Of a stretch of DNA of 64,000 bases, positions 48,372 through 62,096 are shown one piece after another. The stretch lies in NCBI RefSeq assembly GCF_021117295.1, contig NZ_CP088247.1, positions 5,285,001-5,349,000 of the forward strand. Reading direction: 5' to 3'. The first letter of the stretch is position 1, and each line of letters begins with the position of its first letter. A program made the translations under genes and the position numbers. The notes under the pieces were generated by a model. It did not search any database. It saw only the letters and a program-made list of their open reading frames with translations, and was not told the origin of the DNA. The stretch is from Methylorubrum sp. B1-46 (GTDB lineage: Bacteria > Pseudomonadota > Alphaproteobacteria > Rhizobiales > Beijerinckiaceae).

Positions 48372-49223
48372 CTATCCGTCCGAGCGAAACGGGCTCGCGA
48401 AGCGCATCGGCTCGGTGCTCGTTTCGGCCTCGCCGGCTTTCTCGGCCACGAGCAGGATGTGGTATGGGCGGCGTGCCTCCACCGCGAGTGGCCGGAAGCC
48501 TGCCTGTCGCACCATTGCCTCCACGAGCGCCGTGTCGAAGACGTGGTGATGCAGGGCCCGAATCGCGAGGTTGGCGGCCGAGCGCTGCGCGAACGCCTCT
48601 GCTGTCGTGCCGCCCGGGTCGCGTCGCAGGTCGTGCAGCCGCAGGATCTCGGGGACGTGGGTGGTGTCGTCCTCGTCGGTGCTGCGATCGAAGTCCTCCA
48701 CGAGGTGGTCGAGACGGGTCACCGGCCGGCGATGATCGAAGGTTCCGTCCTTGTGCGGGACGATCAGGACGAGAAGACCGTCATCATTCAGCACGCGCCG
48801 CCACTCCTGAAGCGCCTTCAGCGGGTTGGCTGTGTGCTCGATGGTGTGGGAGGACAGAACGACATCGTAGCTGCCGCCCGCGATCGCGGGCAGCGCGGTG
48901 GCCTCGGCGATGTACTGCCGGCCGGCTGGGCGCGAGGGATCGAAGCGGAAGCTCGCGCCGGCATCGATCTCGCCCTCCCAGATCGTCCGGCTGGCGAAGT
49001 TGCAATTGTCGACGGTCGCCAGGATCGGGTAGGCGGGAAAGATGCCGCGCGCCTGGAAGGGTGCGCTCGGACCGCCGATCTCTAGGGCATGCTTCCCGAC
49101 GAATCGCTCGCGCAGAGCCCGGAAACTTTTCGCGCGGGGTTTGAGGATGCGACTGCCCACGCGCGCGAACAGGCCGGCCGCGCCCTCGGTCCGCACGACC
49201 GTCAGCACTTGGTTGATGATCAT
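48372..49223 (-). CDS. Class I SAM-dependent methyltransferase domain protein
   Basis: Protein of about 283 residues. SAM motif I variant HALEIGGPSAPF near residues 44-55, acidic loop in YPILATVDNCNF, and motif IV-V SYDVVLSSHTIEHTANPLKA then DDGLLVLIVPHKDGTFDHRR, as in the Methyltransf_11 type. Comparable proteins occur in glycan and secondary metabolite loci; the substrate is unknown. ATG 49223 follows a GGGGGGATC site and is chosen; earlier in-frame starts (TTG 49286, ATG 49268) would add a basic leader. Confidence 0.8.
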   Translation of the reverse strand: MIINQVLTVVRTEGAAGLFARVGSRILKPRAKSFRALRERFVGKHALEIGGPSAPFQARGIFPAYPILATVDNCNFASRTIWEGEIDAGASFRFDPSRPAGRQYIAEATALPAIAGGSYDVVLSSHTIEHTANPLKALQEWRRVLNDDGLLVLIVPHKDGTFDHRRPVTRLDHLVEDFDRSTDEDDTTHVPEILRLHDLRRDPGGTTAEAFAQRSAANLAIRALHHHVFDTALVEAMVRQAGFRPLAVEARRPYHILLVAEKAGEAETSTEPMRFASPFRSDG

Positions 49224-49305
49224 GATCCCCCCGAGCCCGCGTCGAGCGGGACGGCCATGCTTACCCATCCTCAAATTGAGTGACAACGATCGCTGGCAGG
49301 AGCGC

Positions 49306-49524
49306 TCAGACCACCCGGTGGGCCGCCCCGTCGATTTCCATCCACTTCGTCAAGGCGATGGGCAGCCGCTGAATCGCCGCGTCGCACGTATCCGCCACGC
49401 CTTTCAGGTCGCAGCCGGTCGGGATCCGGTTCTGCTCGACGCCCATCGCCTTGCGTCCGCCGACCATCATCACCCCGCACCCATCGACGCCGATGAAGCG
49501 TACGACGTGAGAGGCCGGCAGCAC
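49306..49524 (-). CDS. Small hypothetical protein
   Basis: About 72 residues from GTG 49524, containing VRFIGVDGCGVMMVGGRKAM and DLKGVADTCDAAIQRLPIAL. Coding-like composition, but no family recognised. It lies 31 bases after the cytochrome c lipoprotein gene on the same strand. A longer version starting at 49596 would overlap that gene. The start is uncertain. Confidence 0.45.
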   Translation of the reverse strand: MLPASHVVRFIGVDGCGVMMVGGRKAMGVEQNRIPTGCDLKGVADTCDAAIQRLPIALTKWMEIDGAAHRVV

Positions 49525-49555
49525 CCTGGCAGCAGGGGAAGTCGGAGGAACATGA

Positions 49556-50050
49556 TCAAGGCCGCGCGGAGAGCGCCTCAACGCCTCCGGCCCCAACCGA
49601 CTGCGCTTGCAGGTATGCGACGATGTCCGCCCGGTCGAGCGGGTCGGGGACTCCGCGAAAGCTCATGCTCGTGCCCGGCGCGAACTGCGCAGGGGCGGCA
49701 AGCCAAGCGTCCAACCTCTCCGGCGTCCAGACGCCGCCCGTCGACCGGAGAGCCCCCGTGTAGCCGAAACGTCGGCTGTTGCTCGCGACGGGCTTGCCGA
49801 CCACGTCGTGGAGGCTGGGACCGTTTCGGTCGCCGGCTCCCACCCTGACCGTGTGACAGGCGGCGCACTGACCGAACAAGCGGCTGCCCCGCCCCGCGTC
49901 GGCTACCCGCATGAAGTCACCGAAGCGCGGATTGTCACCCAGTGAACGGCGGCGTTCCCCGCTCTCATCCGAACAAGCCGTGACGAGGAAGGCCAGCGCG
50001 ATCAGCAGGGCGTGCCGGCGGAATAAGGGGAGATGGAAGGTGCGCTTCAC
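49556..50050 (-). CDS. Class I cytochrome c lipoprotein
   Basis: Protein of 164 residues. The N-terminal signal ends in a lipobox (LLIALAFLVTACSDE, lipid cysteine near 27). One heme site, CAACH, is followed by a class I cytochrome fold with FRGVPDPLDRADIVAYLQ near the end; the methionine in GTSMSFRG is the likely sixth ligand. It resembles the cytochrome c-552/c-550 type with the GP(S/D)LHDVVG(K/R)P motif. GTG 50050 has AGGA upstream and starts the signal; the long upstream frame is not coding. It may serve as an electron carrier to a terminal oxidase. Confidence 0.85.
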   Translation of the reverse strand: MKRTFHLPLFRRHALLIALAFLVTACSDESGERRRSLGDNPRFGDFMRVADAGRGSRLFGQCAACHTVRVGAGDRNGPSLHDVVGKPVASNSRRFGYTGALRSTGGVWTPERLDAWLAAPAQFAPGTSMSFRGVPDPLDRADIVAYLQAQSVGAGGVEALSARP

Positions 50051-50097
50051 CCGTTCGATCCTGTGAACCACCGTCAATCGCCGATATTCGTCCGCCT

Positions 50098-51117
50098 TCA
50101 GTGAGATCGGACAGGCAAGAGCTTGCCGCGCAGCAGCAGGCCCAACGTTCTCAGCGCAATCCAGCCGATGATCAGGTTGGCCGCGACGAACAGCGGAACG
50201 GCGAGGAACGCGCTCGGTCCTGCCAGCCCGCGCTCCGTCAGCCGCAACGCGGCGAGCGGAAGGGCCGAGACACCGAATGTGTAGGCCCAGGCCGCCGGCG
50301 AGAATGGCTGCTGGCGCAACCACGGCACCAGCCGCACCATGACCAGGGCATGCAGCAGAGCGTAGCCGAACAGGATCTGCGCAAGCCGGTCGGGCGGTCC
50401 GTCCGTGACGGCCAGGTAAGCGACGCAAGCCACCGCCGGCGGCGCGAGGTGCAGCCCGAGCGAGGCGCGCAGCGGCACAGGCAGAGTCCGCAGGATCAGC
50501 CTGTGAATGACGACCGATTCCAGCGTCAGCCAGGACAGAAGGCCGGCGCCGAAGAAGAGCAGACCGAGCTCAGTCATGCCGAAGGCGGCGCAGGTGATGG
50601 CCGCCACGAACCCTCCGCCGACGGTGGGCATGTAGAGGATCGGCGTCGTCGCCTCGAAGGCGCGGTCGCCCATCCAGAGGCCTCCCACGCCCCAGACGGC
50701 GAAGAGCGTCGTGCCGACAAGGCCCGCTAGGGCCATCACCCATGCGCCGTCCGGCCAGTGCGGCGCGAGGCCGACGCTGGCGATCATGGTCGCGACAGGA
50801 GCCAGAGCGGCGAAGAACGAGGATATCGGATCTCGCGCCTCGGCAAAAACCGTGTCCCGGTCGTGCAGCCACCGAGCGGCGTAGAAGACCAGCCACGTCG
50901 CCCAGACCGCCACGCCGAGCAGGGAAAGGACCTCGCCGACCCAGGCGGGGGCCAGTGCGAGGCGGGTCATGGCACGCCAGCCGTTTCCCAAACCGCAGAG
51001 TCCGAGCACCATCCCGAAGAAGGTGGCGGGGACCCTGGTCCGTCGAAGCCAAGCGAATTCACGCCGCGGTTTGACGGCACCTTCTCGCTCCGCGACCGAG
51101 CTCGTCTCATCAGGCAC
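50098..51117 (-). CDS. TDT/SLAC1-family (TehA-like) membrane channel or transporter
   Basis: Protein of 339 residues with about ten hydrophobic segments, beginning VPATFFGMVLGLCGLGNGW, the hallmark first helix of tellurite-resistance/dicarboxylate transporters, and later HRLILRTLPVPLRASLGLHL and LAPPAVACVAYLAV. The family includes TehA, the SLAC1 anion channel and Mae1; members pass chloride, nitrate, malate or sulfite. No TehB is adjacent. It precedes the MocR gene by a single base and is thus its operon partner on the minus strand. Confidence 0.85.
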   Translation of the reverse strand: MPDETSSVAEREGAVKPRREFAWLRRTRVPATFFGMVLGLCGLGNGWRAMTRLALAPAWVGEVLSLLGVAVWATWLVFYAARWLHDRDTVFAEARDPISSFFAALAPVATMIASVGLAPHWPDGAWVMALAGLVGTTLFAVWGVGGLWMGDRAFEATTPILYMPTVGGGFVAAITCAAFGMTELGLLFFGAGLLSWLTLESVVIHRLILRTLPVPLRASLGLHLAPPAVACVAYLAVTDGPPDRLAQILFGYALLHALVMVRLVPWLRQQPFSPAAWAYTFGVSALPLAALRLTERGLAGPSAFLAVPLFVAANLIIGWIALRTLGLLLRGKLLPVRSH

Positions 51118-51118
51118 G

Positions 51119-52507
51119 TCAGACGACCGTGGAGATCGCGCCGGGCGGATGCGCCAGGAGCGTCGCGAGCAGGCTCAAGCCGTACCGCAAGGTCTCGGCG
51201 TCCGGCGCCGCCCCCAGAGAAACGCGAATGGCCTCGGGGGCCGGCCCCACCGCGAAGGCATCGCTCAGGATGACCGACAGCCCGAGCTGACGCGCATGCG
51301 CTCCGAACTCGCCGCGACGCCAAGGCTCGGGAAGCCGGAGCCAGAGGTGGTGCCCGCAAGGATGGGCCTGGACGTCGAGACCCTGCAAGGTCTCGCGCGC
51401 GACGGCCTGCCGCCGGCCGTTCTCCTGCCTGATGGCCGCGACGACCGCGTCGAGCTCGCCTTCCAAGATCCAGTGCGAGGCGAGCGCCGCCGTGAGCGGC
51501 GAGGCCATCATGTTGAGCGCCCGCAGCTCGGCGGCGAGCCGCACCGCCTCGTTCGTTCCGGGTACCGCCACATAGGCAATGCGCAAGCCCGGGCTGACGC
51601 ACTTGGACAGCGTTGCGATATGCCACGTGATATCCCCGGCCAAGGAAGCGATGGGCGCCGGAGCATCGGACGGCAGCGCGCCGTACGCGTCATCCTCGAT
51701 GATTGTGACGCCGCGCGAGCGCGCGACCTCGGCGATCCGCTCGCGGCGCGCCGTCGGCAGCGTCGCGGTCGTCGGGTTGTCGAGCGTCGGTACCACGTAC
51801 AGGGCGCGCGGCCGCTCGGCTTCGCAGCGCTCCCGGAATGCGTCCGGGTCGAGCCCGTCCGCGTCGCAGGCTACCGGAACGAGGCGAACGCCGCGGCGCT
51901 CGGCGGCCATGCGCAGGCCCGGATAGGTCAGGGCGGGGATGCAGAGCGCATCGCCCGGCTTGAGGATGGCGGCGAGCGCAGCGGCGAGCACGACCTGGGC
52001 GCCCCCTCCCACGAGGATGCGGTGCACCGGAAGCGGCCCGACCCGCCGACCGAGCCACTGTGCCGCCGCAGCGCGGTCGGCCATGTTCCCGGCGCTGTCT
52101 TGGTACTGCATGCGGTCGAGGAACCCGGGCGAGCCGGCAAGCCGCGACAAGCCTGCTTCCATACGCTCGGCCAGACGCGCCGCCGCCGGCTGGGGCGGCA
52201 TGTTCATGCTGAAGTCGACGCTTCCGGACGGGTCCGGCCTGCGCATCTCCGCAGGCGGCGTGGGCCCGCGTACGAAGCTGCCCCGACCGGCTGTCGCGTC
52301 GATCAAGCCTATCCTGCGGGCTTCGTTGAAGGCGCGTGTGACGGTGGTGAGATCGACGTTGAGGTGTTTGGCCAGGACGCGCTGTGGCGGCAGGCGAACG
52401 CCCGGCGCCAGGCGCCCGGCGCGGATGTCGTCGGCCAGCGCCTTGACGATGGCCAGGTACTTCGGGCCTCCGTCGCCGGCGATTGTCGGGCTCCAGGATG
52501 CCATCAT
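51119..52507 (-). CDS. MocR/PdxR-type regulator (GntR helix-turn-helix plus aminotransferase domain)
   Basis: Protein of 462 residues. The N-terminal winged helix (YLAIVKALADDIRAGRLAPG, then LAKHLNVDLTTVTRAFNEAR) belongs to the GntR family. From about residue 100 a class I aminotransferase-like domain follows with VPTLDNPTTATLP, TIIEDDAYGALPSD and the PLP-lysine region HIATLSKCVSPGLRIAYVAV. MocR proteins use PLP or an aldimine as effector and often control the adjacent divergent operon, here DUF983-hemA-cydAB-nitrilase. Palindromic sites in the shared upstream region support this. Confidence 0.9.
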   Translation of the reverse strand: MMASWSPTIAGDGGPKYLAIVKALADDIRAGRLAPGVRLPPQRVLAKHLNVDLTTVTRAFNEARRIGLIDATAGRGSFVRGPTPPAEMRRPDPSGSVDFSMNMPPQPAAARLAERMEAGLSRLAGSPGFLDRMQYQDSAGNMADRAAAAQWLGRRVGPLPVHRILVGGGAQVVLAAALAAILKPGDALCIPALTYPGLRMAAERRGVRLVPVACDADGLDPDAFRERCEAERPRALYVVPTLDNPTTATLPTARRERIAEVARSRGVTIIEDDAYGALPSDAPAPIASLAGDITWHIATLSKCVSPGLRIAYVAVPGTNEAVRLAAELRALNMMASPLTAALASHWILEGELDAVVAAIRQENGRRQAVARETLQGLDVQAHPCGHHLWLRLPEPWRRGEFGAHARQLGLSVILSDAFAVGPAPEAIRVSLGAAPDAETLRYGLSLLATLLAHPPGAISTVV

Positions 52508-52528
52508 TGACCCCTGCTCTCACATTGC

Positions 52529-52540
52529 TGTATGCATACA
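52529..52540. promoter_or_regulatory. Palindrome tgtatgcataca upstream of the MocR gene
   Basis: A perfect 12-bp palindrome 22 bases upstream of the MocR start, followed at 52543-52550 by the half-site acatacac. The core TGTATG recurs in the long inverted repeat at 52606-52646. It is a probable operator for autoregulation. Confidence 0.6.
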
Positions 52541-52605
52541 CAAGACATACACGCAAAGCGAGCCGTGGTTCTGTCTGTGACAGCGTTTTGAAGACTGTCG
52601 GTCTC

Positions 52606-52646
52606 CACTCCGAATGTATGGATTATTAAGCCATACATTCGGAGTG
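52606..52646. promoter_or_regulatory. 16-bp perfect inverted repeat in the MocR/DUF983 divergent region
   Basis: Arms cactccgaatgtatgg (52606-52621) and ccatacattcggagtg (52631-52646) with a nine-base AT-rich loop. It lies about 50 bases before the DUF983 start and 99 bases before the MocR start. The arms include TGTATG as in the palindrome at 52529-52540, so it could be a regulator-binding site or an mRNA leader hairpin. Confidence 0.65.
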
Positions 52647-52696
52647 CGCAAGGCGCCTCTCGATGCCGTCGGGTGGTCAGCGGTTCAGGAATGTGG

Positions 52697-53104
52697 ATGA
52701 TGCAAAGGACAACCGATCAATCCATCATGTCGGTCGGCGTGCGGTGCCGCTGCCCTCGGTGCGGCGACGGGCGGCTGTTCGACGGTTTCATCACCCTCAA
52801 GCCACGCTGCGAGGCGTGCGGCCTCGACTACGGCTTTGCCGACCCGGCCGACGGACCTGCCTTCTTCATCATGATGACAATGGCCTTCCCGGTCACAGCC
52901 TTCGGCATTTGGCTGGAGCTCGCCTACGAACCGCCGCTCTGGATTCATGCGGTTGTGACGCTTCCGCTGCTCTTGCTGGCTTGCGTGCCGGTCATCCGGC
53001 CGCTGAAGGGGCTCTTCATCGCCAGCCAGTACATCAACAAGGCGGGCGAAGGCCGGCTCGCGACCGCGCCAATCCCCAACACCGGACCTGGAGCAGGCGA
53101 CTGA
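52697..53104 (+). CDS. DUF983-domain membrane protein
   Basis: Protein of about 135 residues. A zinc-ribbon-like [20 protein letters not shown]...CEACGLDY start is followed by [18 protein letters not shown] and two transmembrane segments, exactly the DUF983 plan. DUF983 proteins are often encoded with cytochrome oxidase assembly genes. AGGA lies six bases before ATG 52697, so that start is chosen; GTG 52673 and ATG 52691 are upstream options. Faces the MocR gene and heads the hemA-cydAB run. Confidence 0.82.
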
Positions 53105-53210
53105 CCCTGCCGCTCCGCCGCGCGCTCCCGGACGGATGCTGGGCTGCGGCATGGACCGTCCGGCTCGGATCTCACGGCCGACTCGATCAGACCTGACAAG
53201 GACCGGGACG

Positions 53211-54437
53211 ATGCTGCCCTACTCCGACGTATTCGAGGCCTCCCTTCGGACGCTGCGCGAGGAGGGTCGCTACCGGACTTTCATCGAGCTCGAGCGGATT
53301 GTCGGCACGTTCCCGACGGCCATCTGGAGGCATCCAGACGGCAGCCGCCGGCCGGTCACGGTCTGGTGCAGCAACGACTATCTCGGGATGGGGCACAGCC
53401 CCGAGGTCCTCGGCGCCATGCACGAGGCTCTCGACCGGTACGGCGGCGGTGCGGGCGGCACCCGCAACATCTCCGGCACGGCCCACGAGCACGTGCTGCT
53501 GGAGCGCGACCTCGCCGACCTGCACGGCAAGGAGGCCGCCCTCCTGTTCACCTCTGGCTACGTCTCGAACCTGGCGGCGCTCAGCGTCCTCGGCCAAGTG
53601 CTGCCGGGCAGCGTGATCCTGTCTGATGCCAACAACCACAACTCGATGATCGAGGGCATCCGCCGCTCCGGGACCGAGAAGGCGATCTTCCCGCACAACG
53701 ACGTCGCCGCGCTCGACCGGCTGCTGGCCGGGTACGAGCCCGGACGGCCGAAGATCGTCGCCTTCGAGAGCGTCTACAGCATGGACGGCGACGTCGCCCC
53801 CATCGCGGAGATCTGCGACGTCGCGGAGCGCCACGGCGCGCTCACCTATCTCGACGAGGTGCACGCGGTCGGGATGTACGGCACGCACGGCGCGGGCATC
53901 GCGGAGCGCGAGGGCGTCGCCCACCGCATCACGCTGATCGAGGCGACGCTGGGCAAGGCCTTCGGCGCGATGGGCGGCTACGTCGCCGGTCCGTCCACGG
54001 TGGTCGACGTCATCCGCAGCCACGCGGCCGGCTTCATTTTCACGACCTCGCTCTCCCCCCACCTAGCGGCCGGCGCGCGGGCGGCGGTGCGGCACCTCAG
54101 GGACAGCCAGACGGAGCGGGACGCGCAGCAGCGCAACGCGGCGAGCCTGATGGCGATGCTGCGCAAGGCCGGCCTGCCGGTCCTGCCGAGCCAGAGCCAC
54201 ATCCTGCCGGTCATGGTCGGCGACGCCCACCATTGCCGGCGGATCAGCGAAGAACTGCTGGAACAGCACAGCATCTACGTGCAGCCGATCAACCACCCGA
54301 CCGTGCCGCGCGGCGGCGAGCGGCTGAGGATCACCCCGACGCCGCTGCACACCGAGGAGCACATGCGGGCGCTCGTGACGGCGCTGCTCGAGGTCCGCTC
54401 ACGCGTGGGCTGGGGCGATGTCTCGCTGGCCGCTTGA
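53211..54437 (+). CDS. hemA: 5-aminolevulinate synthase
   Basis: PLP enzyme of 408 residues condensing glycine and succinyl-CoA to 5-aminolevulinate, the first committed step of heme synthesis in alphaproteobacteria. It shows [40 protein letters not shown], the [19 protein letters not shown] loop and the catalytic-lysine region [22 protein letters not shown] precedes ATG 53211. Placement in front of a heme-rich quinol oxidase suggests a dedicated supply of heme; whether the genome carries another hemA or only this one cannot be seen here. Confidence 0.95.
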
Positions 54438-54479
54438 CCGCGGCTTCGCCCCGACGACAGACGCAACGAGGTGACCGAC

Positions 54480-55898
54480 ATGCTGGCGGACGCTGACGCC
54501 CTGCTGCTCGCACGGTGGCAATTCGGGTTCACCGTGGCCTTCCACATCGTGTTCCCGGCCTTCTCCATCGGCCTCGCCAGCTATCTGGCCGTGCTGGAAG
54601 GGCTCTGGCTGGCCACGGGCCGCCAAGTGTTCATCGACCTGTTCCGGTACTGGATCAAGATCTTCGCCATCGGCTTCGCCATGGGCGTCGTGTCCGGGCT
54701 GGTCATGTCCTACCAGTTCGGCACGAACTGGTCGGTCTACGCCGACAAGACGGGACCGGTGCTCGGCCCACTCATGGCCTACGAGGTGCTCTCGGCCTTC
54801 TTCCTGGAGGCCGGCTTCCTCGGGGTGATGCTGTTCGGCATGAGCAAGGTCGGGCCACGCCTGCACTTCCTCGCCACCCTGATGGTGGCCATCGGGACCT
54901 TCTTCTCGGCGTTCTGGATCCTGTCCGTGAACTCCTGGATGCAGACGCCGCAGGGACACGCGGTCAACGCCGCCGGGCAGTTCGTCCCGGTCGACTGGTG
55001 GGCCATCGTCTTCAATCCGTCGTTTCCCTACCGCCTCGTCCACATGGTGCTGGCGGCCTACCTCACCACCGCGCTCGTCGTCGGCGCGGTCGGGGCCTGG
55101 CACCTGCTGCGCGACCGCGCCAACGCGGGCGCGCGGACGATGTTCTCGATGGCGATGTGGATGCTCGCCGTCGTCGCGCCGATCCAGATCCTCGTCGGCG
55201 ACGCCCACGGCCTGAACACCCTGGAGCACCAGCCCGCCAAGGTCATGGCCATGGAAGGCCACTTCCGGAGCCACCCGGACGGCGCCCCGCTCGTCCTGTT
55301 CGGCCTGCCCGACCAGGAAGCCGGCACGGTGCGCTACGCGGTCGAGATCCCGAAGCTCTCCTCGCTGATCCTCAAGCACGGCCTGAACGAGCCCCTGAAG
55401 GGTCTCGACAGCGTGCCGCGGGAGGATTGGCCGCCGGTGCCCGTGGTGTTCTGGTCCTTCCGGGTGATGGTGAGCCTCGGGATGCTGATGCTCCTGCTCG
55501 GCTGCGTCAGCCTGCTCGCCCGCTACAGGGGCAGGCTCTACGAGTGGGCGCCCCTGCACCGCTTCGCCCTCGGCATGGGCCCGGCCGGCTTCGTCGCCGT
55601 GGTGGCCGGCTGGATCACCACCGAGGTCGGGCGCCAGCCCTTCACGGTCTACGGCCTGCTGCGCACGGCGGAATCCGCCTCGCCGCTCCACGCGCCCGCC
55701 GTCGCCGCCTCGCTCACCGCCTTCGTGCTGGTCTACTTCGCCGTGTTCGGGATGGGCATCCTCTACATCCTGCATCTGATGGCGAAGTCGCCGCACCGGG
55801 GCGAGCACGGGATGGAGCCCGGCGCGCCGATCCGCACCGCCGGCATCACGCCCGCGCCCTCGGTCGATCGCGACCGCACCCTCCGCCCCGCCGAATAG
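54480..55898 (+). CDS. cydA: Cytochrome bd-type quinol oxidase subunit I, short Q-loop (CioA-like)
   Basis: Membrane protein of 472 residues. The N-terminal ARWQFGFTVAFHIVFPAFSI bears the heme b595 histidine; LVHMVLAAYLTTALVVGAVG carries the heme b558 histidine; GWITTEVGRQPFTVYGLLRT is the signature after helix 8. The Q-loop between DGAPLVLFGLPDQEAG and the next helix is short, as in CioA cyanide-insensitive oxidases rather than E. coli CydA with its long loop. Heme b558 methionine is expected near residue 390. ATG 54480 is chosen because GAGGTG lies seven bases before it; GTG 54471 is an alternative. Confidence 0.92.
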   Translation: MLADADALLLARWQFGFTVAFHIVFPAFSIGLASYLAVLEGLWLATGRQVFIDLFRYWIKIFAIGFAMGVVSGLVMSYQFGTNWSVYADKTGPVLGPLMAYEVLSAFFLEAGFLGVMLFGMSKVGPRLHFLATLMVAIGTFFSAFWILSVNSWMQTPQGHAVNAAGQFVPVDWWAIVFNPSFPYRLVHMVLAAYLTTALVVGAVGAWHLLRDRANAGARTMFSMAMWMLAVVAPIQILVGDAHGLNTLEHQPAKVMAMEGHFRSHPDGAPLVLFGLPDQEAGTVRYAVEIPKLSSLILKHGLNEPLKGLDSVPREDWPPVPVVFWSFRVMVSLGMLMLLLGCVSLLARYRGRLYEWAPLHRFALGMGPAGFVAVVAGWITTEVGRQPFTVYGLLRTAESASPLHAPAVAASLTAFVLVYFAVFGMGILYILHLMAKSPHRGEHGMEPGAPIRTAGITPAPSVDRDRTLRPAE

Positions 55899-55908
55899 GG
55901 AGCCCGTC

Positions 55909-56916
55909 ATGCTCGCCGATATCGACCTGACGGTGGTCTGGGCGCTCATCATCGCCTTCGCGGTCTTCGCCTACATCGTGATGGACGGCTTCGACCTCGG
56001 CATCGGCATCCTGTTCCCCGCCTTCCGGCCGGGACACGAGCGCGACACCGCGATGAACTCGATCGCACCGGTCTGGGACGGCAACGAGACCTGGCTGGTG
56101 CTGGGCGGCGGCGGCCTGTTCGCGGTGTTCCCGCTGGCCTACGCGGTGATCATGCCGGCCCTCTACGCGCCGATTATCGCGATGCTGCTCGGCCTGATCT
56201 TCCGCGGCGTCGCGTTCGAGTTCCGCTGGCGCGACCCGCGCCACCGGGCGCTCTGGGACGTCGCGTTCACCGGGGGCTCAGTCGTGGCGGCGCTTGCCCA
56301 GGGCATCACCCTCGGCGCGCTGCTCCAAGGCATCAAGGTCGAGGGCCGCGCCTATGCGGGCGGCTGGTGGGACTGGCTCACCCCGTTCAGCCTGCTCGTC
56401 GGGCTCGGCATCGTCTGCGGCTACGCCCTGCTCGGCGCCACCTGGCTGGTGATGCGGACGGAGGGGAGCCTGCAGGACCGGGCGCGCATCTTCTCGCTCC
56501 GGCTCGGCGCGGCCACGGTCGCGGCGATCGCCGCCGTCAGCGCGGCGACGCCCTTCCTGGAAGGCAGGTATTGGGAGCGCTGGTTCGCGATGCCGAACGT
56601 GTTGCTCACCGCCCAGGTGCCGCTCCTCGTCGCGCTCGCCTCGTTCCTGTTCTTCCGCCTCCTGCGCGGTGGGGCGGAGAGAGCGCCGTTCCTGCTGTCG
56701 CTCGGCTTGTTCCTGCTGTCCTTCGTCGGGCTCGGGATCAGCATCTTCCCGGACGTCGTGCCGGGTCGGATCACGATCTGGGAGGCGGCGGCTCCGCATT
56801 CGAGCCAGGTCTTCCTGCTCGTCGGTGCGTCCGTCCTGATCCCGGTCATCCTGGCCTACACGGCCTACTCGTACTGGGTCTTCCGCGGGAAGGTCGACGC
56901 GGCGGGGTATCACTGA
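55909..56916 (+). CDS. cydB: Cytochrome bd-type quinol oxidase subunit II
   Basis: Membrane protein of 335 residues with eight to nine helices and the family start VVWALIIAFAVFAYIVMDGF, then GFDLGIGILFPAF, NETWLVLGGGGLFAVFPLAY and FRGVAFEFRWRDPRHRALWD. It pairs with CydA. It lies 10 bases after cydA, and its stop overlaps the start of a 45-residue DUF2474-type gene (TGATG). Confidence 0.93.
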   Translation: MLADIDLTVVWALIIAFAVFAYIVMDGFDLGIGILFPAFRPGHERDTAMNSIAPVWDGNETWLVLGGGGLFAVFPLAYAVIMPALYAPIIAMLLGLIFRGVAFEFRWRDPRHRALWDVAFTGGSVVAALAQGITLGALLQGIKVEGRAYAGGWWDWLTPFSLLVGLGIVCGYALLGATWLVMRTEGSLQDRARIFSLRLGAATVAAIAAVSAATPFLEGRYWERWFAMPNVLLTAQVPLLVALASFLFFRLLRGGAERAPFLLSLGLFLLSFVGLGISIFPDVVPGRITIWEAAAPHSSQVFLLVGASVLIPVILAYTAYSYWVFRGKVDAAGYH

Positions 56917-57053
56917 TGGGCACCAGCGCCGCTCCCGAGCGGCCGACCCCGCTGTGGCGCCGCCTCGTGTGGTTCGCCTCCCTGTGGGCCGGCAGCATCC
57001 TCTCGCTCGGTCTCGTCGCCGGTCTCCTGCGGGCGTGGCTCAAGGCCGGCTGA
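56916..57053 (+). CDS. DUF2474 small membrane protein of the bd oxidase operon
   Basis: 45 residues: a polar N-terminus, then RLVWFASLWAGSILSLGLVA forming one transmembrane helix, and a short tail. It matches DUF2474, typically encoded right behind cioB/cydB and presumed to be a small oxidase subunit analogous to CydX. The ATG overlaps the cydB stop. Small size is normal for the family. Confidence 0.8.
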   Translation: MGTSAAPERPTPLWRRLVWFASLWAGSILSLGLVAGLLRAWLKAG

Positions 57054-57102
57054 ACCCGCGGCGCCCGGTCCCGACCGCCTCCCGTTCGAGGAGCTGAAAC
57101 CG

Positions 57103-58065
57103 ATGACCGCGAAACCCGTCGTCACGGCCGCCGTGGTGCAGGCCGGCTCGATCCTGTTCGACACCGCGCGGACATTGGACAAGCTTGCGGACCTCGCGAG
57201 CGACGCCTCGGCCCGCGGCGCCGACCTGGCGGTGTTCCCCGAAGCGTTCGTCGGCGGCTACCCGAAGGGGCTCGACTTCGGTGCCCGGATCGGCTCCCGC
57301 ACCCCGGCGGGCCGGGACGACTTCCTCCGCTACCACGCGGGCGCCATCGACGTACCAGGGCCTGCGACCGAGGCCATCGCCGCCGTCGCCCGCGCCGGCA
57401 AGCTGCACATCGTCGTCGGCGTAATCGAGCGGGCCGGCGGCACGCTCTACTGCAGTGCCCTGACGTTCGGGCCCGACGGCGCGCTCCTATCACGCCGCCG
57501 CAAGCTGATGCCCACCGCCTCGGAGCGGCTCGTCTGGGGTTTCGGCGACGGTTCGACGCTCGATGTCGCCGGCACGCCCCTCGGCCGGATCGGGACCGCG
57601 ATCTGCTGGGAGAACTACATGCCGCTCCTGCGCACGGCGCTCTACGCCAAGGGCGTCGAGATCTACTGCGCCCCCACGGTCGACGACCGCGCCACGTGGC
57701 TACCGACGATGCAGACCATCGCCCTTGAGGGGCGGTGCTTCGTCGTGTCGGCGAGCCAATACCTCCTCCGGAAGGATTGCCCGGTCGACTACGCTGCGGT
57801 CCAGGGCGACGACCTGGCAACGGTCTTGATCCGTGGCGGCTCGTGCATCGTGGGTCCCCTGGGGAACGTCCTGATCGAGCCCGATTTCGAGGGCGAGAGC
57901 GTGCGACTCGCCGAACTGGACCGGGCGGACATCGTCCGCGGCAAGTTCGATTTCGACGTGGTCGGCCACTACGCGCGCCCGGACATCTTCAGCCTCAGCG
58001 TGAACGAGCGACCGCTCGAACCCGTCACGGCGAGGGGCTCCGGCGACTATGAGGACCAAACGTAA
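57103..58065 (+). CDS. Nitrilase (carbon-nitrogen hydrolase, branch 1)
   Basis: Protein of 320 residues with the complete catalytic triad Glu47 (AVFPEAFVGGYP), Lys134 (RRRKLMPTASERLVWG) and Cys168 (GTAICWENYMPLLR). The CWENYMPLLR motif and the RKLMPT segment place it among true nitrilases converting nitriles to acids and ammonia, rather than amidases. It lies 50 bases behind the DUF2474 gene and is likely the last gene of the hemA-cydAB operon. Combined with a CioA-type oxidase, nitrile or cyanide handling is a natural hypothesis; the actual substrate is unknown. Confidence 0.93.
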   Translation: MTAKPVVTAAVVQAGSILFDTARTLDKLADLASDASARGADLAVFPEAFVGGYPKGLDFGARIGSRTPAGRDDFLRYHAGAIDVPGPATEAIAAVARAGKLHIVVGVIERAGGTLYCSALTFGPDGALLSRRRKLMPTASERLVWGFGDGSTLDVAGTPLGRIGTAICWENYMPLLRTALYAKGVEIYCAPTVDDRATWLPTMQTIALEGRCFVVSASQYLLRKDCPVDYAAVQGDDLATVLIRGGSCIVGPLGNVLIEPDFEGESVRLAELDRADIVRGKFDFDVVGHYARPDIFSLSVNERPLEPVTARGSGDYEDQT

Positions 58066-58174
58066 AGCACTGACGCAGACGGATCATTCCCGCAAGTCTG
58101 CTGACGGCCCTGACGATTTCGGCCGCCGGGTGGGTCCAAGTGAAGGGCCGGGCGCGACTGTTGTGCTCAGCGAT
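58066..58174. other. Intergenic between nitrilase and IS debris
   Basis: Short gap; nothing recognised. Confidence 0.4.
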
Positions 58175-58474
58175 CTAGCGCTTGATGGCGGCCTGAAGAT
58201 CAACGACGCCGGTGAAGGTGCCGCGCCGCAGGCGGCGGCGGGTCAGGGCGGAGAAGAAGCCCTCGACCGCGGTGAGCCAAGATGCGGAGGGCGGGGTGAG
58301 GTGGAAGGTCCAGCGCGGATGACGCGCCGGCCACGCGCGCACCTGCGGGGGCTTGCGGGTGGCGTCGTTGTCGAGGATCGCGTGGATCGTCTTGCCGGCC
58401 GGCACGGCGGCTTCGACGGCGTTGAGGAAACGGATGCACTCACCGTTCCGATGACCGGTGCGCTTTGCCCTCAC
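58175..58474 (-). mobile_element. IS630-family transposase, C-terminal fragment
   Basis: The translated frame carries IRFLNAVEAAVPAGKTIHAI, LDNDATRKPPQVRAWPARHP, RWTFHLTPPSASWLTAVEGFF and LTRRRLRRGTFTGVVDLQAAI, the last part of IS630/Tc1-type DDE transposases. The N-terminal two thirds are missing. It abuts an IS5-type fragment at about 58458 on the other strand. Not functional. Confidence 0.9.
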
Positions 58475-58700
58475 GGCTGCACAGAAGGGCGACGCGCCAC
58501 AGACCGAGACGCTGCTGAAGGATCTGCCGGCTGACGTGATCCTGGCCGATGCCGCCTATGACAGCGACCGGCTGCGCAAGCTCGTCGCTGACTTAGGCGC
58601 TAAGGCTGTGATTCCGGACAACCCCTCGCGCGCCTGGAAGTATGACTTCGACAAGGCGCTCTACAAAGCGCGCCGTCTGGTCGAACGCTGCTCTCCGCCT
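58458..58700 (+). mobile_element. IS5-family transposase fragment
   Basis: In frame from 58458: FALTAAQKGDAPQTETLLKD, DVILADAAYDSDRLRKLVAD and KAVIPDNPSRAWKYDFDKAL, then RRLVERC, the core of IS5/IS1031-type DDE transposases. Similarity stops at about 58692, where the usual SKLKQFR should follow; the open frame continues to 58829 with unrelated sequence. Both ends of the element are absent. Confidence 0.88.
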
Positions 58701-58877
58701 GCATCGGACGGGGATCATGCCGTAGAACTCGTCTCCCATGCTCTCGACGGTGCAGATCTGGGTGGCTTTCGCTCGAATGAGAGGCGGCTTCCGGTGTCAG
58801 CGAGCCCGGACGGTGAGACATCTCACTAACGCCGCCATTCGATGGGCAAGCGCTCACCGTTCGACGCTGAGAACGGC
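58701..58877. other. Sequence between IS fragment and efflux operon
   Basis: No gene recognised. It contains a short imperfect palindrome, gtgaga-ca-tctcac, at 58813-58826, which may be a remnant of an element end. Confidence 0.35.
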
Positions 58878-61800
58878 TCAGAACGCCTCGAACGGTGTGC
58901 GCTGGGCGGCCACCGGCGACGCGTGCGGCCGGTGACGGGCATCCTGTCGCAACCGCTCCAGGGGCTTTCGGCCGAAGGTCAGGAACAGGACCGGCGTCAG
59001 CACCGTGTCGAGCAGCGTCGCGCTGATCAGGCCGCCGAAGATCGTCACCGCCACCGGGTGCAGGATTTCCTTGCCCGGAGCGTCGGCGCCGATGAGCAGC
59101 GGCACCAGCGCGACGCCGGCGGACAGCGCGGTCATCAGGACCGGCGCGAGCCGTTCCAGGCTGCCGCGGATGACGAGTTCGCGCCCGAACGGCATGCCCT
59201 CGTGAATGGCAAGATTCAGGTAGTGGCTGATCTTGAGGATGCCGTTGCGGGTGGCGATGCCGGTCAGCGTGATGAAGCCGATCATCGAAGCCACCGACAG
59301 GGGCTGCCCGGCGAGCCACAGCGCGGCGACGGAGCCGATCAGGGCGAGCGGGATGCTGCCGAGGATGATCAGCGTGAAGGTCACCGAACGGTAGCGGCTG
59401 TAGAGCAGCGCGAAGACGAGGGCGAGCGAGAGGAGCGACAGGAGACCGATCGTGCGGCTCGCCTCGGCCTGCGCCTGGAACGAGCCCTCCAGGCGCGTCG
59501 TGTAGCCGTTGGGCAGGCTTGCTGCGGCGACGTTCTCCCGAATGGCCTCGACGATCTTGCCCATGTCGGCGCCGGGCTGCGTGTTGGCCTGCACGACGAT
59601 GCGGCGGCGGGCGTTCTCGCGCAGGATCTGGTTCGGCCCGTCGGTTTCGCGAATGTCGGCGATCTGGCGGGCCGGCACCCAGCCGGACGGCGTCTCGATC
59701 AAGAGGTCTCCGAGGCGCTGCGTCGTGCGCATCGCGTCGGAGAGCCGCATCACCACGTCGAAGCGGCGGTAGCCGTCCACCACCCGCGAGACCACTTGGC
59801 CGTTCGAGAGACGGCTCAACTGCTCGACCAGGGCGGCGGGCTGCACGCCGTAGAGGGCCGCGCGATTGTAATCGACGCGGATTTCGAGCTGCGGGATCAG
59901 CACCTGCTTCTCGACCTGCAGGTCGGCAATGCCGGGGATATCGGCGAAGCGTTGCCGCAGGTCCTCGGCCAGCGCCCGCAGGGTGTCGAGATCTTCGCCG
60001 AAGATCTTGAGCGCGATCTCGGCGCGCACGCCTGAGAGCATGTGGTCGAGCCGATGCGAGATCGGCTGGCCGACATTGACGTTGACCGGCAGCACCGCGA
60101 GGCGCCCGCGGATATCGGCAACGAGGTCGGGCTTGGGCCGGGCCCCCGGCTTGAGGTCGATCTCGAGGTCGGAGGAGTGCACCCCCTCCGCATGCTCGTC
60201 GAGTTCGGCCCGGCCGGTGCGGCGGCCGATCGACCGGACGTCCGGCATCTCGAGAAGCAGGCGCTCGGCCACGAGGCCGATGCGGTTGCTCTCGGCGAGC
60301 GAAATGCCGGGATTGAAGGTCATGTTGACCGTGAACGAACCCTCGTTGAACGGCGGCAGGAAGGTGCGCGGAAGGAAGAAGGCCGCGAGACCGGCCGCCG
60401 CCACGGCGAACGCGGCGACCGCCATGACGGGGCGGGCATGCCCGAGCAGGCCCCTGAGCAGGGCGGCGTTGCCGCGCTTGAGCGCTTTGAGGAAGCGGCT
60501 GTCGTGCTCCTCCAGACGTTTGAGGCCGGGCAGCAGATAGTAGGCGAGCACCGGTGTCAGCGTGATCGAGACGAGGAGACTCGCCAGGATCGAGATGATG
60601 TAGGCTTGGCCCAGCGGCGCGAAGAGCCGGCCCTCGATGCCGGACAGGGCGAAGAGCGGCACGAAGACCAGCACGATCACCATCGTGGCGTAGACGATGC
60701 CGGAACGCACTTCGTTCGAGGCCGCGACCACCACGTCGAAGACGCTCCTCGGATTTCCGGCCCGCCGGTTCTCGCCGAGGCGTCGGAAGATGTTTTCCAC
60801 ATCGACCACGGCGTCGTCGACGAGCTCGCCGATGGCGATGGCGAGACCGCCGAGGGTCATCGTGTTGATGGAGAGCCCGAAGGCGTGGAACACTACGGCG
60901 GTCGCCAGGATCGAGACCGGGATCGCCGTGAGCGAGATCGCGGTGGTGCGGACGTTGAGCAGGAAGGCGAACAGGACGATTGCGACCACGACCACCGCTT
61001 CGACCAGCACCGTTTCGACGTTGCGGATCGACGTCTCGATGAACTTGGCTTGGCGGAAAATGATCTGGTCGGCGCGCACGCCCTTGAAGGCGCAGGCTTC
61101 GCCGGCCGGTTCGGTACCGAGCTGACCCGGACTACGCTTGTCGGCGTCGGGACCGCACGTGTTGAGGCTCGCCGTGATCTCGGCGAGCGCCGCCTCGACC
61201 TCGCGGGTGAGGCGGACCGTGTCGACACCCGGCTGCTTCTCCACCGAGATCACGACGGCGGGCGCGCCCATATAGCCGCTGTCGCCGCGCTTCACCCGCG
61301 CCGCGAAGGACACGTCGGCCACCTGCCGCAGGTAGACGGGCCGATTGTTGACCGTCGCGACCACCATGTTCCGGAGGTCGTCGAGGTTCATCGTCCGTCC
61401 GAGATTCCGGATCAGGTACTCGCGGGCGTACTGATCGGTGAAGCCGCCGCCGGTATTGGTGCCGAATTGCGCGAGCGCGGTTTCCAACTGGGCATGGGTG
61501 ACGCCGAGCGCCCGCAGGGCCGTCGGTTGCGGGGCGACGCGGAACTGGCGCACCTCGCCGCCCATCGGGATCACCTGGGCGACGCCCGGAATGGAGAGCA
61601 GACGCGGCCGGATGGTGAAATCGGCCAGCTCCCGCAACTGCATCGGCGAGACCGAGCCGCCGCTCAGCGCCACCATCACGATCTGGCCCATGATCGAGGA
61701 GACCGGACCCATCATCGGGGTCACCGTCGGCGGCAGTTGCGGCCGCACCATCGCAAGGCGTTCCGAGACCTGCTGGCGGTTGCGGTAGATGTCGGTGCCC

Positions 61801-62096
61801 CAATCGAACTCGACATAAATCACCGAGAGGCCGACGCCTGAGACCGAGCGCACCCGCGTGACGCCGGGTAGGCCGTTCATCTGCGTCTCGACCGGGAAGC
61901 TGACGAGTTGCTCCACCTCCTGGGGCGCGAGCCCCTCGGCCTCCGTCATGATGGTGACGGTGGGCCGGTTGAGGTCGGGGAAGACGTCGACCGGCAGCTT
62001 GGTCGCCGTAAACGCGCCGTAGACGACGAGGACGGCGGCGAGCGCCAGCACGAGCAGGCGGTTGCGCAGGGACTGCGTGACGAGGAGCGTGAACAT
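58878..62096 (-). CDS. Heavy-metal RND efflux pump inner-membrane transporter (CzcA/CusA)
   Basis: Protein of 1072 residues with twelve helices and two large periplasmic loops. The proton-relay helix [20 protein letters not shown] and the repeated [19 protein letters not shown] and [16 protein letters not shown] place it in the heavy-metal efflux (CzcA/CusA) group. An insertion near residues 310-345 ([20 protein letters not shown]) sits in a periplasmic loop and contains two cysteines; it might be a metal-binding addition. The N-terminus [20 protein letters not shown] is standard. Downstream of its adaptor gene by 12 bases. Confidence 0.94.

Follow-up and report, generated by a model that had tools for sequence, protein, structure and literature searches.

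Why should a nitrilase, a 5-aminolevulinate synthase (ALAS) and a bd-type terminal oxidase be encoded side by side, opposite a MocR-type regulator? The question is raised by a locus of Methylorubrum sp. B1-46, whose genome comprises 5.5 Mb in 4 contigs; the stretch analysed here, positions 5285001-5349000 of contig NZ_CP088247.1 (64,000 nucleotides), is called the window, and feature coordinates refer to it. An initial annotation had proposed that nine genes of this locus make up a self-contained unit for respiration under cyanide, nitrile or related stress. Our results indicate that the MocR-linked module is real and recurs, and that its parts point, by analogy and gene content, to cyanide tolerance. 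We consider it probable (roughly 0.7) that this locus belongs with the cyanide-tolerance clusters of the cio-nit4 kind, as a compact alphaproteobacterial relative under repression by a MocR that binds pyridoxal phosphate (PLP).

Gene content of the locus and identity of its products

Domain and model matches confirmed all nine genes, at the places and in the orientations first annotated, and two predicted operators lie between the divergent arms:

49556..50068, minus strand: lipoprotein-like c-type cytochrome (PF00034 match on a longer open reading frame, ORF; NF043008 weak, below its cut-off)
50098..51117, minus strand: TehA-type TDT/SLAC1 anion channel (NF008032, 354 bits, cut-off 342; SLAC1, E 1e-32)
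51119..52504, minus strand: MocR-type regulator (GntR helix-turn-helix and aminotransferase-like domain; PLP lysine K301)
52530..52550, no strand: predicted MocR operator 1, on the MocR side (GTATG-N11-CATAC)
52616..52636, no strand: predicted MocR operator 2, upstream of DUF983 (GTATG-N11-CATAC, core of a longer TGTATGG...CCATACA dyad)
52697..53104, plus strand: DUF983 protein (PF06170, E 5e-30; alternative start 52691)
53211..54437, plus strand: hemA, ALAS, divergent cluster paralogue by its tree (TIGR01821, 628 bits, cut-off 338.55; PLP lysine K249)
54480..55898, plus strand: cydA/cioA, short Q-loop bd oxidase subunit I (PF01654, 542 bits; alignment to Escherichia coli CydA)
55909..56916, plus strand: cydB/cioB (PF02322, 335 bits; TIGR00203 above cut-off)
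56916..57053, plus strand: DUF2474, CydX-like small subunit (PF10617, E 7e-9)
57103..58065, plus strand: NIT4-like nitrilase (PDB 6i00; figures in the text)

The closest solved relative of the nitrilase is NIT4 of Arabidopsis (PDB 6i00), with 387 bits against 188 for the next one and 56% identity (177/315 aligned residues). Glu47, Lys134 and Cys168 are kept, in agreement with the original call of a true nitrilase; this catalytic triad is common to both proteins, the window one being bacterial, operon-encoded and of predicted activity. NIT4 is called specific for beta-cyanoalanine in the available text of PMC6637149. Since the window enzyme is NIT4-like, its likely nitrile would be beta-cyanoalanine, a cyanide detoxification intermediate, and not nitriles in general, the broader theme suggested at first. 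A second strong nitrilase of this host was not found among the genus matches listed.

The short Q-loop attributed to CydA was borne out by alignment, as the E. coli protein carries about 60 extra residues at window CydA residues 311-316. DUF2474 has been tied to subtype C of the cyanide-insensitive oxidases (CIO) as a CydX-like small subunit (PMC5322542, in the sections accessible), and with both features present the window CydAB is probably a CIO-type bd oxidase. The host has further CydA relatives at 67%, 53% and 37% identity, and four ALASs in all; the other three are 60-61% identical to the cluster copy, which passes TIGR01821 and retains its PLP lysine. Elsewhere on the chromosome (L239:5965-19847) a CydA-like gene (53%) and an ALAS gene (61%) lie about 11 kb apart.

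The regulator combines a GntR helix-turn-helix with an aminotransferase-like domain, as MocR transcription factors do, and the PLP lysine is present in 64 of 64 aligned MocRs, the window one included. An identity as the ectoine regulator EhuR was ruled out (NF052286, 400.8 bits, under the cut-off of 480), even though this is the nearest NCBIfam model.

The spacing of the genes points to two transcripts that diverge, MocR-TDT-cytochrome c on one side and DUF983-hemA-cydA-cydB-DUF2474-nitrilase on the other. On the minus strand the gaps are 1 bp (MocR/TDT) and 29 bp (TDT/cytochrome), and on the plus strand 106 bp (DUF983/hemA), 42 bp (hemA/cydA), 10 bp (cydA/cydB) and 49 bp (DUF2474/nitrilase), with an overlap of 1 bp between cydB and DUF2474; the divergent MocR/DUF983 gap measures 192 bp. 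Terminator-like sites numbered four over both strands (3.1 expected), the single plus-strand one sitting inside cydA, and a single transcript from DUF983 to the nitrilase is plausible. The promoter search at the locus returned no sigma-70-like promoter (0.4 expected), and base composition is unremarkable. In the cytochrome, whose start is uncertain, a lipobox (LVTAC) and a CAACH motif were seen by eye; it adjoins TDT also in the relatives L049 and L060, and among the loci compared only those of the genus showed any linkage to the TDT channel.

Recurrence of the cluster within and beyond the genus

The genus was represented by 111 genomes, with nitrilase matches listed down to about E 6e-8. Among the matches listed, five of the 111 genomes hold a nitrilase of the window type at no less than 91% identity (partial and in two pieces in G018), and two more, G003 and G096, hold remnants only; three of the seven copies are broken. 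The best named matches are those of Methylorubrum zatmanii LMG 6087 and M. thiocyanatum DSM 11490 (92% each). In all seven genomes the orthologous cydAB-DUF2474 is followed immediately, on its own strand, by the nitrilase or what is left of it; in G096 cydA too was matched in two pieces.

Twenty genus loci around cydA were compared gene by gene. An orthologous MocR (79-91% identity) is present in 16; the nitrilase is full-length in three and broken in three, and ALAS is full-length in ten and fragmentary in four. Given that ALAS and the nitrilase are patchy and MocR is found in 16 of 20, the oxidase-MocR core is more stable than either enzyme, and the unit is modular. The proposal of a self-contained cyanide or nitrile unit stands in part: both the unit and its cyanide theme are favoured by comparative genomics and by likeness to a Pseudomonas cluster discussed below, with the corrections that the unit is modular and that the likely nitrile is narrower than first suggested. 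The ALAS fragments (L054, L055, L057, L061) lie right upstream of cydA, which in L054 (genome G021) has one internal TAG stop, and in L051, L052 and L053 the NIT4-like nitrilase is broken or truncated at the same spot behind DUF2474.

A second MocR (41-43% identity) lies downstream of cydAB in ten of the 20 loci (L048-L064), and in nine a NitC-like nitrilase stands beside it, 2.4-9.5 kb downstream of DUF2474. In L060, the one locus on which the models were run, this cluster passes TIGR04042, 04043, 04044, 04046, 04047, 04048 and 04049, from the set TIGR04042-04049, which we take to describe the Nit1C cluster. The likeness to Nit1C lies in these neighbours with their own MocR; the window nitrilase itself fails the Nit6803/NitC model (TIGR04048, 213.6 bits against a cut-off of 502.6), and its membership was ruled out. 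The stretch of L049 between cydAB and the NitC-like region encodes a CysI sulfite reductase that passes its model cut-off and a CysJ-like protein that does not. The window may have lost a portion of an island downstream of its nitrilase, since CysI-type genes or a NitC-like nitrilase follow there in several relatives. At 58066-58830, 3' of the nitrilase, short transposase-like fragments were seen by eye (ORF 58049-58534 has no Pfam match), followed by a gene for an AcrB-type pump.

Outside the genus, one scan of GTDB species genomes yielded 542 confirmed nitrilase loci, the best 80 of which were kept (2 from Methylorubrum, 78 from others); many of the 78 are on short contigs, which makes absences there weak. 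Eleven of the 78 contain cydAB (Azospirillum soli, a Microvirga metagenome-assembled genome, two Rhizobium, two Neoroseomonas, Asticcacaulis, Sphingomonas, Ochrobactrum, Tropicimonas and Sphingobium), 15 a MocR (at least 44% identity) and eight an ALAS (at least 63%). The nitrilase is 20-105 bp from cydA in ten of the 11, the matches overlapping by 2 bp in the A. soli locus (L070), and MocR is at most 136 bp from the nitrilase in 12 of the 15. Linkage to cydA in 11 of 78 loci has a chance probability of about 3e-9, assuming, by our own estimate, that a random 20 kb stretch holds cydA in 1.2% of cases, many loci being shorter. Judged by these counts, the link of nitrilase, oxidase and MocR is more than chance. 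Co-occurrence of nitrilase and cydAB in related genomes, which had been named as a check on the proposal, was thus found in seven of the seven genus genomes listing this nitrilase and in 11 of the 78 other loci.

In an even draw of 385 genomes of the class, of which the first 4-5 candidates per genome were scored, a strong MocR match (E<=1e-90) occurs in 35 genomes and is beside cydA in five (G000, G009, G401, G478, G187). Of the other strong ALAS matches (62-67% identity, 13 genomes), the two viewed (L245, L246) had no MocR, nitrilase or cyd genes nearby. In another family (L208-L210) a MocR (45-47%) directly precedes cydAB, a DUF983 gene (33-37%) diverging from it, with neither nitrilase nor dyad. 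In Nitrospirillum (L076) a MocR-ALAS-nitrilase locus includes heme-copper quinol-oxidase-like COX1, COX2 (ARM motif) and COX3; cydAB was not found there.

A conserved dyad and a distinct ALA synthase lineage

In the MocR/DUF983 gap, aligned for 17 genus loci, two blocks are conserved, GTATGCATACA near MocR and TGTATGG-N-CCATACA before DUF983; their mean conservation is 92% over 37 columns against 77% over the other 155, the blocks having been chosen from the same alignment that scored them. Both window blocks read GTATG-N11-CATAC. A dyad with 9 bp spacing lies directly before MocR in 11 of the 15 non-genus MocR loci (L072-L075, L077-L082 and L084). Dyads of this spacing also precede the nitrilase in L071, hemA in L236 and L237 and an aldolase gene in L237, and L070 has two sites upstream of the likely SerC start. 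With spacings of 8-13 allowed, the 1.93 Mb of loci hold 24 sites against 2.1 expected, or 21 without L062, which entered the set because it had already shown matches. Within the MocR tree, every one of the 17 genus rows has the dyad, as do 11 of the 14 in the sister group. Among the second MocRs of the genus, beside the NitC-like nitrilase, five of nine rows have a GTATG...CATAC dyad nearby, and in Rhizobium hainanense (L264:6651) a dyad, GTATGGATATCAAGCCATAC, starts 38 bp before a 160-residue ORF, about 9 kb from NitC-type genes.

All trees were quick ones, with support from the Shimodaira-Hasegawa-like approximate likelihood ratio test (SH-aLRT) only. One clade (SH-aLRT 99) unites 11 cluster ALASs of the genus with nine from eight further genomes and stands apart from the other ALAS copies of the same genomes; the non-genus rows came mostly from genomes chosen for having a nitrilase locus. 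All nine non-genus members sit in loci with MocR/nitrilase or SerC/ArgD-type genes. A single set of 32 rows (SH-aLRT 97) likewise takes in the genus MocRs and those from most loci with a linked nitrilase. In the CydA tree the rows with a linked nitrilase are split over three positions: one clade of nine rows, a pair from Azospirillum and Microvirga, and the genus itself. The supported branches require at least three changes of the nitrilase-plus-MocR label, possibly including losses. In the nitrilase tree several rows labelled MocR really carry cyd and MocR, identical-row removal having kept some short loci, and counts were taken per locus instead. From the sequences, the module looks like a portable kit for life with cyanide, about a dozen other bacteria carrying rearranged versions of it, the majority with the predicted dyad.

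Known cyanide systems, proposed mechanism and rival explanations

Whether such a set had already been described in this genus was a question raised at the outset. As far as the parts of the reports available go, the cio-nit4 cluster of Pseudomonas pseudoalcaligenes/oleovorans CECT5344 (BN5_1899-BN5_1912) has a divergent mocR and encodes CysI3, CioC, CioAB, SerC, HisC, ArgD, DapA, MetF, CysM3, MaeB and Nit4; a KDPG-type (2-keto-3-deoxy-6-phosphogluconate) aldolase, BN5_1898, is listed next to mocR. A cyanide residue induces the cluster and 3-cyanoalanine for the most part does not (hisC3 being the exception), and in a mocR mutant the cluster proteins are constitutive, a result given there as unpublished (PMC8567248, PMC11049912, PMC5333837). 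By gene content as published, the window locus is alike in uniting a divergent MocR, CioAB and Nit4. It differs in gene order, in the addition of DUF983, ALAS, the TDT channel and cytochrome c, and in that SerC, HisC, ArgD, CysI, DapA, MetF, CysM and MaeB are not among the genes identified at 48372-62096. Thus the kind of cluster is known from CECT5344, and the window has a compact version with its own ALAS. According to PMC8567248 (2021), no nit4 homologs had yet been described in comparable gene surroundings, and PMC11049912 (2024) states that a homologous cluster is absent from bacterial databases; at the level of gene content, the loci reported here speak against the latter. Among the papers listed by our literature searches there was no description of such a cluster for this genus, cioA-nit4-mocR papers all being on Pseudomonas, and no paper titled on a link of ALAS with cyanide, nitrilase or bd oxidase.

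Some alphaproteobacterial islands come closer to CECT5344, whose types of genes are partly found in L070, L088, L102 and L236-L238. L070 encodes SerC (above cut-off), a HisC-like protein (269.6 bits, cut-off 276.55), a 2-dehydro-3-deoxy-6-phosphogalactonate/KDPG-type aldolase and CcoG; L088 encodes ArgD (above cut-off) and a partial CcoG. In L074 we found a NIR_SIR reductase, far under the CysI model cut-off, and a weak MetF-like match, in L237 a malic enzyme with a PTA domain and in L236 a serine acetyltransferase-like protein. Relatives of island genes recur in L072, L073, L077, L084, L102 and L236-L238, and R. hainanense keeps its island (L236) and a MocR-nitrilase-cydAB operon (L084) on separate contigs.

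A MocR has been connected with cyanide before: in Pseudomonas aeruginosa MpaR mediates cyanide-dependent expression of ccoN4, for which its authors propose a PLP-cyanide adduct as the signal (PMC10790758). As in the window, a MocR-family regulator stands beside terminal-oxidase genes, and cyanide is the signal there; unlike the repressor proposed here, MpaR activates, recognizes the palindrome ATCTGAT and serves a cbb3 subunit, and the genes named in the accessible part of that paper include no nitrilase or ALAS. MocR regulons that include PLP enzymes and cytochrome oxidases from unknown pathways are also reported in PMC5320631.

The mechanism that we propose is the following. MocR would bind the two GTATG-N11-CATAC sites of the divergent promoter and repress in both directions: its own gene with those of TDT and cytochrome c on one side, the DUF983-hemA-cydAB-DUF2474-nitrilase operon on the other. 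This repression would be lifted by cyanide, either directly at the PLP of MocR or through a product, and the derepressed cell would respire via a cyanide-insensitive CydAB, with heme supplied by the dedicated ALAS. The nitrilase would hydrolyse beta-cyanoalanine to aspartate or asparagine and ammonia, the beta-cyanoalanine being formed from hydrogen cyanide by a cysteine/cyanoalanine synthase encoded elsewhere. This first step is plausible in the genus because two Methylobacterium sequences are among the bacterial ones closest to an arthropod cyanoalanine synthase (PMC4011162, in the portion available).

Several results weigh against this explanation. Fourteen of the 20 genus cydA loci have no nitrilase match, and hemA is absent or fragmentary in ten. 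In the class sample a NIT4-like match (E<=1e-110) occurs in nine of 385 genomes, and only that of the window adjoins cydA; with one in nine, a universal nitrilase-cydAB link is ruled out, and the association, though it recurs, is sporadic. In the ALAS tree the copy near the nitrilase in L117 falls among housekeeping types, and the cluster copy of A. soli (L070) groups with its own paralogue; in the MocR tree L070, L076, L088 and L102 are placed apart from the main set. Fifteen whole genomes hold 39 dyad sites against 30 for a reversed control, which is higher in six of the 15, and the exact dyad was not found at the cluster in G115, G118, G120 and G121. As the dyad is barely enriched genome-wide, its position, not its number, is the evidence: by hand count 19 of the 39 sites fall at these clusters or islands, and two of the four in the host genome (control, two) lie in the MocR/DUF983 gap. 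Finally, no 3-cyanoalanine synthase activity was detected in CECT5344, and the part played by Nit4 in that strain may therefore be marginal.

Low oxygen is a common setting for bd oxidases, and the locus could be an ordinary operon for low oxygen or oxidative stress with its own heme supply, in which MocR answers to an amino acid or to PLP and the nitrilase is incidental. The genus loci without a nitrilase match and the MocR-cydAB arrangement of L208-L210 would fit such a role, which we nevertheless find unlikely in view of the NIT4-like linkage in seven of seven genus genomes and 11 of 78 other loci, of the NitC-like nitrilase and second MocR downstream of cydAB in nine of 20, and of the dyad common to the loci. 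Somewhat more unlikely still is a role of the nitrilase in nitrogen scavenging or in the conversion of nitriles from plants (indole-3-acetonitrile to auxin, for example), its place by the oxidase then reflecting the usefulness of both on plants rather than a shared response to cyanide. Nitrilase loci do occur in Rhizobium, Sinorhizobium and Azospirillum, which are plant-associated, and NIT1-type relatives act on aryl nitriles; set against this are the best solved match, NIT4, with the specificity given for it (PMC6637149, in the text available), and a bd-type oxidase linkage that recurs with different CydA lineages.

It is improbable, too, that the MocR inducer is beta-cyanoalanine, the nitrilase substrate, rather than cyanide. 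Known MocR regulons include those for use of gamma-aminobutyric acid, taurine and ectoine (PMC5320631, in its available part), and EhuR is the nearest model of the window MocR. We keep this effector only as a rival because the CECT5344 data speak against it: in the published text at hand, 3-cyanoalanine left cioA and nit4 uninduced and the cyanide residue induced both, in a strain whose MocR may not be orthologous.

A broader idea, which we hold tentatively and regard as possible but doubtful, is a dispersed MocR-controlled alphaproteobacterial cyanide regulon, in which MocR would read PLP damage and switch on spare isozymes of cyanide-poisoned enzymes. Cyanide reacts with PLP; the spares would be PLP enzymes (ALAS, SerC, HisC, ArgD), a siroheme reductase, Schiff-base aldolases and a terminal oxidase, NIT4 would clear the detoxification product, and the window would be a minimal version with ALAS as its one spare PLP enzyme. 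This replacement-isozyme idea was not met in PMC8567248 in a limited check of terms, and the words pyridoxal and isoform are absent from the accessible text of PMC6989483.

Under the cyanide-tolerance reading that we prefer, about a dozen natural versions of the cluster become available for comparison, together with a predicted operator and an ALAS lineage found with these clusters. Two questions are thereby made testable, namely how a MocR protein would sense cyanide and why PLP enzymes of amino-acid and heme synthesis would travel with a cyanide-resistant oxidase.

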